64,000 nucleotides of DNA from Gemmatimonas sp. (GTDB lineage: Bacteria > Gemmatimonadota > Gemmatimonadetes > Gemmatimonadales > Gemmatimonadaceae), in assembly GCF_027531815.1 (NCBI RefSeq), contig NZ_JAPZSK010000009.1:62001-126000 (forward strand), in the 5' to 3' direction. Shown here piece after piece: positions 24,127-56,269 of this stretch (positions within the stretch are counted from its first letter, which is position 1; the number at the start of each line of letters is the position of its first letter). A program made the position numbers and the translations under genes. The notes under the pieces are model-generated. The model was given only the letters and a program-made list of their open reading frames with translations, did not search any database and was not told where the DNA came from.

Positions 24127-25791
24127 ATGGCGGATAACCGGGCGCGATTCGCGCTGGCGCTCCTCGCCTTCGGTGTTGCGGCGTGCGGTGGTGAAGCCCC
24201 GGCACCGTCCGGCGCCGGGGCGACGGTATTGCGCTGGGGTGGCGACGCCGAGGGTGGCGCGCCGTTCGTGGAGGCCGACCCGTCGAATCCGTCGGTGGTC
24301 CGCGGCTTCGACGTGGAGATCGCCGAGCTGATGGCCCAGGGGCTCGGGCGTTCGGCGCGCTTCACCCAGGTGGCGTGGGCCAGTATCGAACCGTCGGTGG
24401 CGCGCGGCGACTTCGACGTAGGGATGTCGGGGGTCGAGGACCGGTCCGAGCTGCGGGCGCGCTTCGCGGTGAGCCTCCCGTACTTCGAGTTCCGGCAGGT
24501 GCTGGCGGTGCGCACGGCCGATACGGCGCGCTATCGCACGCTCGCCCAGCTTGCCGGTCGGCGCGTAGCCACGCTGGGTGCGACCGGCGCCTACCGACTG
24601 TTGCTGGCCGCGCAGCAGGCGCACGGCGTGGTGCCGGTGAGCTACGACGACGACGTGCACCCGTACACCGACCTCGTGGAGGGGCGCGTGGACGCGGTGC
24701 TGCTGGATCATGTGATCGCCGACCGGGCCTTGCAGCGCACGGGCGGATTCGTGATTCAGCCCGCGGAGGTGGCGCGGGGGGCCTACGTGGCGGTCTTCGC
24801 GCGCAACCAAGCCGCGCTGCGCGACTCGGCCAACCGCGTGCTCGCCGCGCGACTGCGTGACGGCACACTGGCGGCCGTGTTCCGGAAGTGGGGCGTGTGG
24901 GATGCCGAGCAGTCGGCGTATCAGCAGCGGCTGATCGCATCGCTCCAGCCAGGGTCGGGGTCAGGGTCGGGGTCAGGGTTGGGGTCAGGGTTGGGGTCAG
25001 GGTTGGGGTCAGGGTCGGGGTCAGGGTCGGGGTCAGGGTTGGGGTCAGGGTCGGGGTCAGGGTTGGGGTCAGGGTCGGGGTCAGAGCTGGGGTCAGAGCT
25101 GGGGTCAGAGCTGGGGTCAGAGCTGGGGTCGGAGCTGGGGTCGGGGACGGTCGGCGCCAGGTCGGTGTGGGCGTACGCGCCATCGCTGCTGCGTGCGGCG
25201 GCCATCACGCTGGGCATTTCGGTGGCCGCCATGCTGCTGGCCGTGCTGCTTGGCAGCGGCATCGCCGCCGGTCGGGTGTACGGCGGCCCCGTGACGCGCG
25301 GGGCACTGGCCACCTACGTGGAGATCGTGCGCGGCACGCCGGTGCTGCTGCAGCTGTTCGTGCTGTACTACGGCCTCAGTGCGGTGGTGCGGCTCCCGGC
25401 GCTGCTCGCCGCCATCATCGGTCTCGGGCTCAACTATGCCGCCTACGAGTCGGAGATCTACCGCAGTGCGCTGCAGGCGGTGCCGCGGCTCCAGCTCGAA
25501 GCCGCCCGCACCCTCGGGCTCAGCGAATGGCAGCTGTTCCGGCTCGTGCGCGGACCGCAGGCCTTCCGCCTCGCGCTGGCGCCCATGACGAACGATTTCG
25601 TGGCGCTGCTCAAGGACTCGTCGCTGGTCAGTGTCATCACCGTCGTGGAGCTCACCAAGCAAACGGCCATCTACGCCACCAACGTGGGGAGCTGGCTGGT
25701 ACCGGGGTTGGCCTGTGGTGCCATGTACCTGGCGCTGTCACTGCCCCTGTCGCGCCTGGCGCGCCGTCTGGAGGCGCGATGGAATCGATGA
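24127..25791 (+). CDS. Amino-acid ABC transporter: lipoprotein substrate-binding domain fused to permease through a Gly/Ser repeat linker
   Basis: Protein of 554 aa. A lipobox (FGVAAC) near residue 20 is followed by a SBP_bac_3 domain, residues ~35-275: GFDVEIAELMAQGL, then FDVGMSGVEDRSELR, typical of polar amino-acid binding proteins. Residues 276-341 are a repetitive Gly-Ser/Gly-Leu/Glu-Leu linker made from hexamer repeats. The permease half has about five TM segments from residue 350, with the EAA loop EAARTLGLSEWQLFRLVRGPQAFR. Fusions of binding domain and permease are known (GlnP-type), so architecture and substrate class are sound. The linker is the odd part. The ATPase gene overlaps the end of this one. 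Confidence 0.9.
   Translation: MADNRARFALALLAFGVAACGGEAPAPSGAGATVLRWGGDAEGGAPFVEADPSNPSVVRGFDVEIAELMAQGLGRSARFTQVAWASIEPSVARGDFDVGMSGVEDRSELRARFAVSLPYFEFRQVLAVRTADTARYRTLAQLAGRRVATLGATGAYRLLLAAQQAHGVVPVSYDDDVHPYTDLVEGRVDAVLLDHVIADRALQRTGGFVIQPAEVARGAYVAVFARNQAALRDSANRVLAARLRDGTLAAVFRKWGVWDAEQSAYQQRLIASLQPGSGSGSGSGLGSGLGSGLGSGSGSGSGSGLGSGSGSGLGSGSGSELGSELGSELGSELGSELGSGTVGARSVWAYAPSLLRAAAITLGISVAAMLLAVLLGSGIAAGRVYGGPVTRGALATYVEIVRGTPVLLQLFVLYYGLSAVVRLPALLAAIIGLGLNYAAYESEIYRSALQAVPRLQLEAARTLGLSEWQLFRLVRGPQAFRLALAPMTNDFVALLKDSSLVSVITVVELTKQTAIYATNVGSWLVPGLACGAMYLALSLPLSRLARRLEARWNR
24952..25149 (+). repeat. In-frame hexamer minisatellite encoding the transporter linker
   Basis: About 33 consecutive hexamers, mainly GGGTCA, GGGTCG and GGGTTG with later GAGCTG units, arranged partly as 12-mers. 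All units are 6 bp, so gain or loss of copies keeps the reading frame. All six frames are open across it, which explains several long false frames here. The encoded peptide alternates G-S, G-L and E-L. The 5' part mixes Ser and Leu types, while the 3' part is a clean G-S-E-L block, implying separate expansions. Confidence 0.95.
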
Positions 25792-26570: not shown

Positions 26571-26882
26571 GGTCGCGGGCAACGCGTGCCCGCGGAGATC
26601 ACGGAGGAGGTGATCGGATTGCCGGAGGTCGGACATCGGATGAATGCCGGAGGGCCGATATCGGAAACCGCGTTCGGAAGTCGGAGGTCGGAGAGTCGTG
26701 CGGCACAATGGCGCGCGCAGCGCGAGTCCGACTTCCGATCTCCGAACGCGGTGTCCCGGCTCCGATTTCGGACATGAATCCGACCTCCGACTTCCGACTG
26801 GTCCGAATCAATCGGATGGATCCGACTCCCGGAGGTCGGACGTCGGATGAATGCCGAAGCTCCGCGCCGACAGCGCCGCGCG
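26571..26882. repeat. 312-bp spacer filled with a family A half-arm and a family B palindromic array
   Basis: 26583-26613 carries one family A arm (GCGGAGATCACGGAGGAGG). From 26620 to about 26860 is a family B array of CGGAGGTCGGA-type words. Two arms, 26667-26692 and 26727-26754, are inverted repeats around a 34-nt core containing GAGTCGTGCGGCAC. A 26-bp end segment recurs directly at 26624-26649 and 26831-26856 with one mismatch. No convincing gene; frames read through it are repetitive. Confidence 0.85.
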
Positions 26883-32935: not shown

Positions 32936-32994
32936 GCGGGGGGCGGTGAGACGGTGAGAGGTCAGCGCGGGGAGCGGTGAGCCCAACGCCTGGC

Positions 32995-33106
32995 CACGGA
33001 GATCACCGAGGTGGTGGAGGGCACGGAGAACGGCATGATGCGTCGTGCAGTGCTCTTTTGCTTTTGCAGTTCTCCACGTTCCTCCACCACCTCCGTGATC
33101 TCCGTG
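32995..33106. repeat. Family A long imperfect palindrome (complete copy)
   Basis: Left arm 32995-33031 (CACGGAGATCACCGAGGTGG...) pairs with right arm 33069-33106 over about 37 positions with few mismatches. The 37-nt loop is AT-richer and contains TTTTGCTTTTGC. It starts 59 bp after the upstream stop codon and could fold into a long hairpin in RNA. Arms of the same sequence recur at 26583, 38338, 55984 and 56123. Confidence 0.85.
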
Positions 33107-33154
33107 AGGGCGCGTTACCCCCGACCCAGACGCCGACCCCCGACCTCAGTTGAG

Positions 33155-33355
33155 GAATCGGACTCGCTCTGCGCGCACCATCGCGCCGCACGACCCTCCG
33201 ACCTCCGACGTCCGAACGCCGTGTCCGGCATCGGACCTCCGGCATCCATCCGACTTCCGACGTCCGACATCCGAGTGTCCGACCATCGGACGTCCGAGGC
33301 CGGATGAGTGCCCGACGTCGGAGGCGGGACACCGCGTTCGGAGGTCGGATTCATC
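33155..33355. repeat. Family B array with conserved core (inverted relative to the 26.7-kb copy)
   Basis: CCGACCTCCGA/CCGACGTCCGA words in both orientations. The segment 33159-33200 (GGACTCGCTCTGCGCGC... GCCGCACGA) is the reverse complement of the core at about 26690-26730 with a few changes. The core is therefore a shared sequence unit and not a chance product of the short words. Confidence 0.8.
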
Positions 33356-33453: not shown

Positions 33454-34965
33454 ATGCGTCCTGCATTGTTTCGTCGCGCCCTGCGCGCCGCCACCGGCAC
33501 CAGTCTGCTCATGGCCTCGCCCGTCGTGGCGGCGGCCGTCGTTCCCGCAACGGCGACCGCGCAGTCCGACACGGCCATCACGCGCGCGGAATTGGACGCC
33601 CGTCGCAGCGCGTTCGCCCAGCGCATCGGCAACGGCGTGGTGGTGGCATTCGGCGGACGCGCGCTGGTGCATGACTTCAGCACCTTCTATCAGCTCGCGG
33701 CGTTCCGGTACCTCACCGAGCTCAACGAACCCGATCACGCCTTCGTGATGGTGGTGCGCGACAAGGTGCCCAGCACCACGCTGTTCCTCACCAAGCTCGA
33801 CCCGCGCACGGCGTTCTACTATGGCCAGCGCACCGACTCCACCAACAGCGTGCCGCGCACGGGGCTGCCGGCGCGCTCGTACGACGCCATCTGGGGAGTG
33901 CTCGATTCGCTGGTGGCCACGGGGCTACCGTTCTACCACATCCCCGATGTGGAGACCATGGACTTCTCGCGCGTCGACACGCTCACGCGTGGTCAGGAGG
34001 CGGTGAAGGCGCTCGCGCGCAAGCATCCGCAGCTTACCGTGCGCAGCGCCATGCCGCACGTGCTGGCGGTGCGCGCGCGCAAATCGGCGGCCGAGCTCGC
34101 GCTCATTCGCCGGGCCGTGGAGGTCTCCAGTGAAGGGCACCGCGCCGCCATGCTCACGGCCAACCCGCAGCACGAGTACGAACTGCGCGCGGCGCTGGAG
34201 TACGAATTCACCAGGCGTGGCGCCGAGCGTCCGGCGTACGGCTCCATCGTGGGGTCGGGGTACAACGGCACGACGCTGCACTACATGAAGGACATGGACC
34301 CGGTAAAGCCGGGCGATCTGGTGGTGATGGACGCCGGCGCGGAGTACCGCGGCTACGCCGCCGACGTCACGCGCACCATCCCCGTGAGCGGCACGTACAC
34401 GGCCGACCAGCGCGCCATTTACCAGCTGGTGCTCGACGCGCAGAAGGCGGCCGAGCGCAACAGCAAGCCGGGGATGAGCATTCGCGCGGCGGCCGACAGC
34501 GCGGTGGCCGTACGCACGAAGGGGCTGGCGGCGCTGGGGCTCATCGAGAGTGAGGACGCCATGTACGATCCGCCCTGGCGCGTGGACTGCACCGCCAACC
34601 CCGCGTCGTGCAAGCAGGCGAACTTGTGGATGATTCACGGTATTTCGCACGGCATCGGGCTGGCGGTGCACGACCCGTTGCAGGGCGATCAGAATGGCGG
34701 ACGGTTCGCCGAAGGCGACGCGTTCACGATCGAACCCGGCGTGTATGTGAGCACGCGGGCGCTCGACGTGCTCCCCGACACCCCGCGCAACCGGCAGTTC
34801 AAGGCCAAGGTACTGGCCAAGGTAAAGCAGTACGAGAACACCGGCGTGCGCATCGAAGACGACTACCTCATCACCGAGAAGGGGCTGGAGCGCATTTCGC
34901 TGGTCCCGCGCGAGATCGACGAGATCGAGGCGCTCATGAAGCGGCGGCGGGCGATTCAGCCGTGA
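33454..34965 (+). CDS. Secreted M24 metallopeptidase, Xaa-Pro aminopeptidase (aminopeptidase P) type
   Basis: Protein of 503 aa with a signal peptide (about 38 residues, ending ATATAQ). An AMP_N-like domain covers residues ~40-190, and the pita-bread M24 domain follows. Metal ligands: the two Asp in MDAGAEYRGYAADVTRT, His in HGISHGIGLAVHD, Glu in TIEPGVYV and Glu in RIEDDYLIT. It removes N-terminal residues preceding proline from peptides in the periplasm. The ATG at 33454 gives a good signal peptide; an in-frame start at 33430 adds eight residues. A rearranged fragment of this gene lies 3.2 kb downstream. Confidence 0.92.
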   Translation: MRPALFRRALRAATGTSLLMASPVVAAAVVPATATAQSDTAITRAELDARRSAFAQRIGNGVVVAFGGRALVHDFSTFYQLAAFRYLTELNEPDHAFVMVVRDKVPSTTLFLTKLDPRTAFYYGQRTDSTNSVPRTGLPARSYDAIWGVLDSLVATGLPFYHIPDVETMDFSRVDTLTRGQEAVKALARKHPQLTVRSAMPHVLAVRARKSAAELALIRRAVEVSSEGHRAAMLTANPQHEYELRAALEYEFTRRGAERPAYGSIVGSGYNGTTLHYMKDMDPVKPGDLVVMDAGAEYRGYAADVTRTIPVSGTYTADQRAIYQLVLDAQKAAERNSKPGMSIRAAADSAVAVRTKGLAALGLIESEDAMYDPPWRVDCTANPASCKQANLWMIHGISHGIGLAVHDPLQGDQNGGRFAEGDAFTIEPGVYVSTRALDVLPDTPRNRQFKAKVLAKVKQYENTGVRIEDDYLITEKGLERISLVPREIDEIEALMKRRRAIQP

Positions 34966-38197: not shown

Positions 38198-38329
38198 TCC
38201 CCGTGAGCGGCACGTATACGGCCGACCAGCGCGCCATTTATCAGCTGGTGCTCAACGCGCAGAAGGCGGCCGAGCGCAACAGCAAGCCGGGGATGAGCAT
38301 TCGCGCGGCGGGCGATTCAGCCGTGATGC
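38198..38329 (+). pseudogene. Rearranged duplicate of the aminopeptidase P gene
   Basis: 38198-38311 is nearly identical to 34379-34492 inside the intact M24 gene, then jumps at a GCGGCGG sequence to the end of that gene (34943-34966, GGCGATTCAGCCGTGATG). About 450 bp between the two GCGGCGG sites are missing. The fragment marks the right border of the lower-GC region, directly followed by a family A arm. Confidence 0.85.
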
Positions 38330-38544
38330 GGCGCAGCAGTTCTCCTGCACCTCCACCACCTCGGTGATCTCCGTGAGGACGCGTTTCCCCCCGACCCCGA
38401 CTCCGACCCCGACCGGAACCCACCTCGCCCCTGCAGCATCTCCGCCCACGGCCGCGTCGTGCCGCACACCAGGCACGAGGCCCGGTTCTCTCCCACCAAC
38501 GCGAACTCGCTCTCCAGCCCGCACGCGTCGCAGGCGCCCGTCAC
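38317..38544 (-). CDS. Possible small zinc-ribbon protein with repeat-derived tail
   Basis: 75 aa from a GTG at 38544. The first ~45 residues (GACDACGLESEFALVG, then ASCLVCGTTRPWAEML) contain two CxxC knuckles spaced as in a zinc ribbon. The rest, GRGGFRSGSESGSGG and an Arg-rich end, is encoded by the (CCGACC)n tract and the family A arm. Either a truncated gene whose end was replaced by repeat DNA or a remnant. The start is weak. Confidence 0.4.
   Translation of the reverse strand: MTGACDACGLESEFALVGENRASCLVCGTTRPWAEMLQGRGGFRSGSESGSGGNASSRRSPRWWRCRRTAAPHHG
38338..38415. repeat. Family A right arm plus (CCGACC)n tract
   Basis: 38338-38384 (TTCTCCTGCACCTCCACC... CTCCGTGAGG) matches the right arm of the complete palindrome at 33069-33110. 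It is followed by CCCCCGACCCCGACTCCGAC-type hexamers at 38388-38415. No left arm is seen. Confidence 0.8.
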
Positions 38545-52783: not shown

Positions 52784-53046
52784 CGGCAATTCCGGGGAAA
52801 GGGACCGCCGAAAGGTACGGCCCGGGCGACCACTGCACGTTGGCGCTCGGACAAATGCCGATTCGGAGCCCGGAAACCATGCTCGGAGCTCCGAGGCCGC
52901 ACGTACCCTACGCCCCCCAACGCCCCTCCGACTTCCGACTTCCGAACGCCGTTTCCGACATCGGATCTCCGGCATGCATCCGACCTCCGACCTCCGACCT
53001 CCGACCTCCGGACATCCGACCAATCCGACCGATCCGACCAATCCGA
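52784..53046. repeat. Family B array between the esterase and YeeE genes
   Basis: 263-bp spacer. From about 52922 to 53046 it consists of CCGACTTCCGA and CCGACCTCCGA words; four CCGACCT copies run in tandem at 52980-53010 and the end is CCAATCCGACCGATCCGACC. The first 130 bp include GCTCGGAGCTCCGAGGC, a short dyad. No coding potential except the esterase start. The array stops right at the stop codon of the next gene. Confidence 0.8.
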
Positions 53047-55929: not shown

Positions 55930-56269
55930 CGCGCCGGCCGCAACCATCTCGCTGGTGGCTCGAGAGACGAGCGCGACGCGCCATCACAGAGCGCACCGAG
56001 GCGGTGGAGGCCATGGAGAACCGCAACAAAGCACAGCCGCATTCGGCAGTTCTCCCTGGTATTCAGTGCACAGCCCGCTGCCCGATGGGTTCAGTCACCG
56101 CAAGGGTACGCCGGCATGCAGGCTGTTCTCCTTACCCTCGACCACCTCGGTGAGCTCGGTGAGGGCGCGGTGACCCCGACCCCGACCCCGACCAAGACCC
56201 CGCCCCGCACGTCAGCGACAGCGTCGACGCGGTGCTACATTCGCCGTTCCCTTCCCCGCGAGTGTGTCT
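55930..56269. repeat. Variant family A element with long loop and (CCGACC)n tract
   Basis: 340-bp spacer. Left arm 55984-56021 (CACAGAGCGCACCGAGGCGG...) and right arm 56123-56170 (CTGTTCTCCTTACCCTCGAC...) resemble the complete palindrome at 33.0 kb, but the loop is about 100 nt. GACCCCGACCCCGACCCCGACC follows at about 56171-56195. No coding sequence supported; the region ends at the hypothetical gene start. Confidence 0.75.

Follow-up and report, generated by a model that had tools for sequence, protein, structure and literature searches.

Family A, a set of long palindromic repeats lying between genes in the 64-kb window (the whole stretch of DNA that was analysed, G000:C9:62001-126000, 68% G+C), probably represents the satellites of a selfish element that has the GxxExxY nuclease as its enzyme, a reading to which we give a probability of roughly 0.68. 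The association of heptamer palindromes with GxxExxY genes is well supported, and it comes with a set orientation of the heptamers, a conserved active site in the enzyme, a match between the dispersed repeats and the repeat beside the gene, and the in-place exchange of cassettes whose borders are sharp. No GxxExxY gene was found within the window itself, and for its copies the most likely partner is a gene elsewhere in the genome, at G000:C2:460700-461080.

Repeats in the window

A sequence-only reading of this DNA had described a complete palindromic element at 33 kb, a variant with a longer loop at 56 kb and single arms at 38338-38384 and 26583-26613, all placed between genes, and each of the four was recovered by a covariance model or by alignment (Table 1). 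The complete element has arms of about 45 bp, a core of CACGGAG-type heptamers and ends near ACGCGT. Folded as single-stranded DNA it reached -44.1 kcal/mol (z = -7.45), which was equalled by 0/200 shuffles, in agreement with the long hairpins that had been proposed. It is flanked by a nitronate monooxygenase ORF on one side and an M24 peptidase ORF on the other, and is present too at the orthologous site in the sister species G005. The long-loop copy, which is common to G000 and G005, lies upstream of an amidohydrolase ORF, and the arm at 26.6 kb, which abuts a family-B repeat and is too short to match the model, occupies the gap between ABC ATPase and starch/glycogen-synthase ORFs.

Table 1. 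Positions of family-A repeats in the window, with the evidence for each
Feature	Position	Strand	Evidence
Complete palindrome	32980..33121	.	Covariance model, E 2.7e-24 on +, 9.7e-21 on -
Long-loop palindrome	55970..56176	.	Covariance model, E 3.8e-20 on -, 6.6e-19 on +
Lone right arm	38336..38385	+	Aligns to 33065-33145; weak model match, E 0.02
Lone truncated left arm	26583..26613	+	Found by alignment, including against G005

The lone right arm is adjoined by a 118-nt patch (window 38198-38315) that copies a fragment of the M24 peptidase gene (34379-34496), from which it is 3.8 kb apart and to which it is 97% identical; G005 has neither the arm nor the patch. The patch looks like filler DNA left by break repair. 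A second palindromic intergenic family, of the TCCGACTTCCGA/TCGGAAGTCGGA type, is present in the window at 26620-26864, 33158-33349 and 52920-53036. DNA searches with it gave many matches in G000 and G005 and none in other members of the genus, and its copies often directly adjoin family-A pieces.

Copies, ends and insertion sites

A genome search with the arms, as had been proposed, placed the family well beyond the window copies. A 19-mer from one arm, allowing up to 3 mismatches, matched 27 places genome-wide against 0 for a reversed control pattern; some 20 of the 27 belong to recognisable elements, the remainder being chance matches inside genes. In the 4.3-Mb genome the covariance model gave 33 strand-matches, corresponding to at least about 17 near-complete elements, where 55 candidates were scored per genome and the family-A counts are therefore lower bounds. 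Alignment of the copies, also proposed earlier, yielded common ends (GGGAAACGCGT...ACGCGTTTCCC) and arms built of CACGGAG-type heptamers, and it supports the description of family A as non-autonomous units that are scattered between genes, form hairpins and have recognisable ends. The target duplications that such an alignment might have revealed were not seen in 29 copies, in which the best flanking repeat had a mean of 3.7 nt vs 3.4 nt in cross pairs, and a flanking repeat of at least 6 nt occurred in 2/29 copies vs 2.5% of cross pairs. Agreement between the arms of family A in G000 was only slightly higher within copies than between copies (0.73 vs 0.70; 318/20000 permutations as high).

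G000 and G005 do not have the same satellites everywhere. Several sites are element-free in G005, but none of them has readable element borders, because whole intergenic stretches differ between the two genomes.

Elsewhere in G000, three family-A elements stand in tandem (L067 3258-3744, G000:C12:13757-14243) with a 180-bp period that includes about 50 bp of common intervening DNA. At two copies of G032 (L161 and L157) the palindrome runs 10-20 bp outward into copy-specific sequence, as if an older hairpin had received the element at its centre or fold-back copying had extended the palindrome; the outward extension is clear in these two copies only, and its mean effect is small.

Y1 transposases and REP repeats

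The absence of a transposase from the window, reported in the sequence-only reading, holds for Y1 transposases, the family that was searched. A RAYT/TnpA-REP with matching ends had also been suggested, and such a gene mobilising family A as a REP/BIME/REPIN population would fit a repeat that is hairpin-forming, intergenic and dispersed, in a genome with one Y1_Tnp gene, and with family-A matches in 9/9 family-rank genomes that have a Y1 gene. Family-A matches occur as well in 16/28 family-rank genomes without Y1. The single Y1_Tnp (RAYT-type) gene found genome-wide in G000 (L028) has a 12-bp tandem repeat, unlike family A, on either side, and the Y1 genes of related genomes have still other flanking repeats; arrays of the CRCNRAG heptamer were present at 0/21 Y1 loci. 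RAYT mobilisation was rejected on the grounds of these differing flanks and missing arrays, and we regard it as highly improbable.

REPs are palindromes of 20-50 nt with a conserved GTAG (or CGTC) tag (PMC3733652, PMC8266576), and they are RAYT-linked and high in copy number (PMC3733652, PMC3116915, PMC8266576). Family-A elements measure 104-216 nt, have no invariant GTAG/CGTC tag beside the arms in the family-A alignment, and number at least about 17 vs hundreds, and an identity with REP, BIME or REPIN was therefore discarded. What survives of the earlier suggestion of non-autonomous mobile or REP/BIME-like units is their dispersed, non-autonomous and hairpin-forming nature.

Several Y1 genes (L028, L084, L089, L091-L093, L095) carry long inverted or tandem repeats of their own, for example AAGGGGTCAGAGTCGTTGAA and TTCAAGGGGACGGAGATCTTGAA, which are lineage-specific. 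Within the window, a 12-bp tandem array at 24940-25145 (CAGGGTCGGGGT, then CAGAGCTGGGGT) separates the solute-binding and permease domains encoded by one long ORF, and the unit of its second half is identical to that flanking the Y1 gene L028 on both sides.

GxxExxY genes and their arms

The most likely partner gene is a 127-aa ORF situated between family-A elements at C2:460555-460668 and 461169-461282. Its protein was identified as TIGR04256 (E 4.5e-32, 110.9 bits vs a curated cut-off of 35) and as PF13366 (PDDEXK_3; E 2.1e-32, 112.3 bits vs a cut-off of 22). In G003 (C104) a GxxExxY gene, 81% identical, is likewise enclosed by elements of this kind and occupies the equivalent chromosomal site, which follows a pyruvate:ferredoxin oxidoreductase-like gene; the gene is absent there in G021, G025, G016, G007 and G010.

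GxxExxY was found in 34/61 related genomes. Inverted arms (score ≥20) bracket the gene at 19/72 GxxExxY loci in related genomes, and the same test returned 0/2000 for random placements, 0/44 for window genes and 0/442 for other places in the loci (0/2486). The arms vary by lineage on one theme (CACGGAG, CGCGGAG, CGCGAAG, CGCAAGG, CGCGGAA). Within the family-rank group, 23/26 genomes that carry group-I GxxExxY had family-A matches, compared with 2/11 that lack it (p 8e-5), and genus-level correlations of presence are confounded by descent, the genomes, which are drafts, sharing ancestry. Family-A matches without a group-I GxxExxY match occur in G009, G010 and G058, which are either draft genomes or cases of gene loss. 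A second GxxExxY subgroup (YNxLGxG type; L175, L240, L358) goes with a palindrome of the type ACCACGGAT..CACGGAA, and in G021 a palindrome of this type occupies the site where G000 has its GxxExxY gene.

An independent set was obtained by a scan of genome contigs, which gave 80 GxxExxY loci in about ten phyla, one archaeal, including Verrucomicrobia, Sphingomonas and other Proteobacteria, Bacteroidota, Planctomycetes, Chloroflexi, Acidobacteria, Ignavibacteria and others. Inverted arms were present around the gene at 24/75 loci, compared with 3/1090 random placements and 2/112 other ORFs, and 60/5550 cross-locus pairs of arms matched vs the same 24/75 within a locus. The median gap is 20 bp between the upstream arm and the start of the ORF and 14 bp between its stop and the downstream arm, and the unit of arm, gene and arm is 436-926 bp long (median 530 bp). 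Arrays of at least 3 CRCNRAG heptamers lie within 300 bp of the gene at 54/75 loci vs 28/751 control placements (Fisher 3e-46), a comparison for which the consensus was derived after viewing the same wide set; the inverted-arm test is motif-free. Upstream of the gene the heptamers are on the + strand in 44 cases vs 10, and downstream on the - strand in 27 vs 11, so that the purine strand points to the gene from both sides. Some GxxExxY loci have neither array nor palindrome nearby. With 5/72,556 plasmid records and 0/50,697 phage records carrying it, GxxExxY is not spread by plasmids or phages.

Satellites and cassette exchange

At one orthologous GxxExxY locus, where the flanks are 79-89% identical, the palindrome directly behind the gene differs between species. 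The palindrome from G029 recurs at about 20 places in that genome and has matches in G004, G001 and G022 and none in G021 and G028; the gene-adjacent palindromes of G004 and G001 are of the CGCAGAG type, as in G029. Conversely, the palindrome from G021 (CACAGAG type) recurs at about 20 places in G021, with one marginal match in G028 and none in G029, G004, G001 and G022. From these reciprocal tests it follows that the dispersed type in a genome is the type beside its GxxExxY gene. In G028 the dominant palindrome type did not turn up next to the resident GxxExxY genes, and a second GxxExxY gene of G000 (C14) has an adjacent palindrome with short partial matches and no full-length dispersed copies, so not every master has satellites.

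Cassette replacement was observed between G000 and G005 at one locus (cassette mostly 66-80% identical, flanks about 90-98%) and between G017 and G006 at another. In the locus pairs L206/L207 and L238/L239 the flanks have an identity of about 0.9-0.98 and the cassette mostly 0.6-0.8, with a sharp change at the arms. A third locus (L205/L204, G000 and G005) has 0 substitutions from -15 to +438, a stretch of 453 bp covering the gene, and flanks that differ by about 6%. The pattern is the footprint that would be expected of in-place cassette copying; it could also, though less plausibly, stem from ordinary recombination within the flanks. Downstream of the identical GxxExxY gene at the third locus, the palindrome is single in G000 and gives three BLAST matches in a row in G005, where the row is a recent expansion.

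The enzyme

Residues E27, D67, E77-x-K79 and Q91 are invariant in 36 aligned GxxExxY proteins, so the D...ExK core of PD-(D/E)XK nucleases is kept together with the E and Q motifs. The predicted structure (pLDDT 95) has a PD-(D/E)XK fold, and the nearest solved fold is that of the Cas4 protein SSO0001 (4ic1, Z 9.6). We are confident in predicting, from model and alignment, that the GxxExxY partner is a PD-(D/E)XK nuclease with an intact active site. At the level of sequence the similarity to Cas4 is marginal (E about 1e-3), and a role in anti-phage defence was set aside, with Cas4-like matches of that order and no better.

In the open-access journal literature searched, no earlier account of such a system and no function or repeat association for GxxExxY, PF13366 or TIGR04256 was found, and their mentions concerned one topic unrelated to repeats and otherwise algae and an algal virus. 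The heptamer sequences gave only an unrelated match within the same scope.

Proposed explanation and alternatives

In the proposed explanation, the enzyme-bearing form would consist of an arm of about 4 CACGGAG-type heptamers, a nuclease gene of ~125 aa and an inverted arm, or alternatively of the gene and, next to it, a complete palindrome. In satellites both arms would be kept, with a short loop in place of the gene. We infer that the palindromes are cut or copied by the nuclease, which would recognise the heptamer arms, be it in duplex, in cruciform or in single-strand hairpin form, and cut at the arms or at the allelic site; repair of the break may then copy in the arms, at times together with the gene, in a homing-like manner. 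Against this explanation stand the lack of target-site duplications and of clean insertion sites, the three genomes with family-A matches and no group-I match, the dominant type of G028, the GxxExxY loci with neither array nor palindrome, and the small difference between within-copy and between-copy arm agreement.

The gene could instead be a passenger that persists perhaps because it is tolerated or regulated at such sites, with the palindromes spreading by host replication slippage, template switching or an unidentified recombinase. The lack of target duplications agrees with this, as do several loci with one adjacent palindrome in place of flanking arms and the genomes that keep palindromes without the gene. 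Against it, the arms hug the ORF in a fixed orientation across many phyla, the dispersed type equals the gene-adjacent type genome by genome, and the active site of the nuclease is kept intact, and we consider a passenger gene unlikely. Still less probable is an origin of the repeats as RNA or DNA structures useful to the host (terminators, stabilisers of mRNA 3' ends, protein-binding arrays) duplicated by ordinary recombination, with the copy after GxxExxY serving as a terminator. A palindrome does stand right after the stop codon in several orthologous GxxExxY genes, and two family-A copies have an internal G+C-rich hairpin, in one case followed by a T run; however, the T tract is inconsistent, arms are found upstream of the gene too, species-specific types replace one another at one site, and the 56-kb copy appears upstream of a gene. 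No match above the Rfam gathering score was found in the window or at the elements, tRNAs excepted.

The satellite reading places family A near several known systems. Like REPIN/RAYT (PMC3116915, PMC8266576), it has miniature repeats that form hairpins and are dispersed between genes, an enzyme gene on the chromosome with adjoining cognate repeats, a repeat type that tracks the enzyme-linked type, and few or no copies on plasmids and phages. The enzymes differ, being a PD-(D/E)XK nuclease for family A and an HUH/Y1 tyrosine transposase for RAYT, and so do the repeats, which here have long CRCNRAG-heptamer arms without the GTAG/CGTC tag, are swapped as cassettes at allelic sites and number at least about 17-20 copies vs hundreds. 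By analogy, we read family A as functionally like REPIN-RAYT with an unrelated enzyme. MITEs derived from DDE insertion sequences are likewise short elements that retain the terminal inverted arms of a gene-bearing unit, whereas here the matching arms belong to a PD-(D/E)XK nuclease gene and the 29 copies have no target-site duplication. Homing endonuclease genes, some of them PD-(D/E)XK, are also small and undergo sharply bordered replacement in situ between relatives, and the likeness lies in this expected footprint, in-place cassette replacement, alone; GxxExxY genes are in contrast free-standing and intergenic, outside any intron or intein, and have inverted heptamer arms and gene-less satellites. 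The partner genes themselves belong to TIGR04256/PF13366 above the curated cut-offs.

With slightly less assurance than for family A itself, we favour the view that heptamer palindromes and GxxExxY nucleases form one pan-prokaryotic selfish class, made up of autonomous arm-nuclease-arm cassettes and palindromic satellites, which would move by nuclease-induced copying or homing with ever-changing arms and an enzyme unrelated to transposase-based repeat systems. This suggests a possibly undescribed kind of selfish DNA, for whose spread a nuclease would be responsible and not a known transposase.

GxxExxY genes are frequent in environmental bacteria and essentially unstudied, and heptamer palindromes stand beside them in many phyla with no explanation in the literature searched. 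The link between gene and repeat provides a testable role for the protein and a candidate enzyme for the repeats. If the explanation is true, palindromic repeat populations would have had two or more origins, with enzymes as unrelated as HUH/RAYT and PD-(D/E)XK, and the cassettes in which arms and nuclease change jointly at a given site would offer a natural series for the co-evolution of a nuclease with its recognition sequence.
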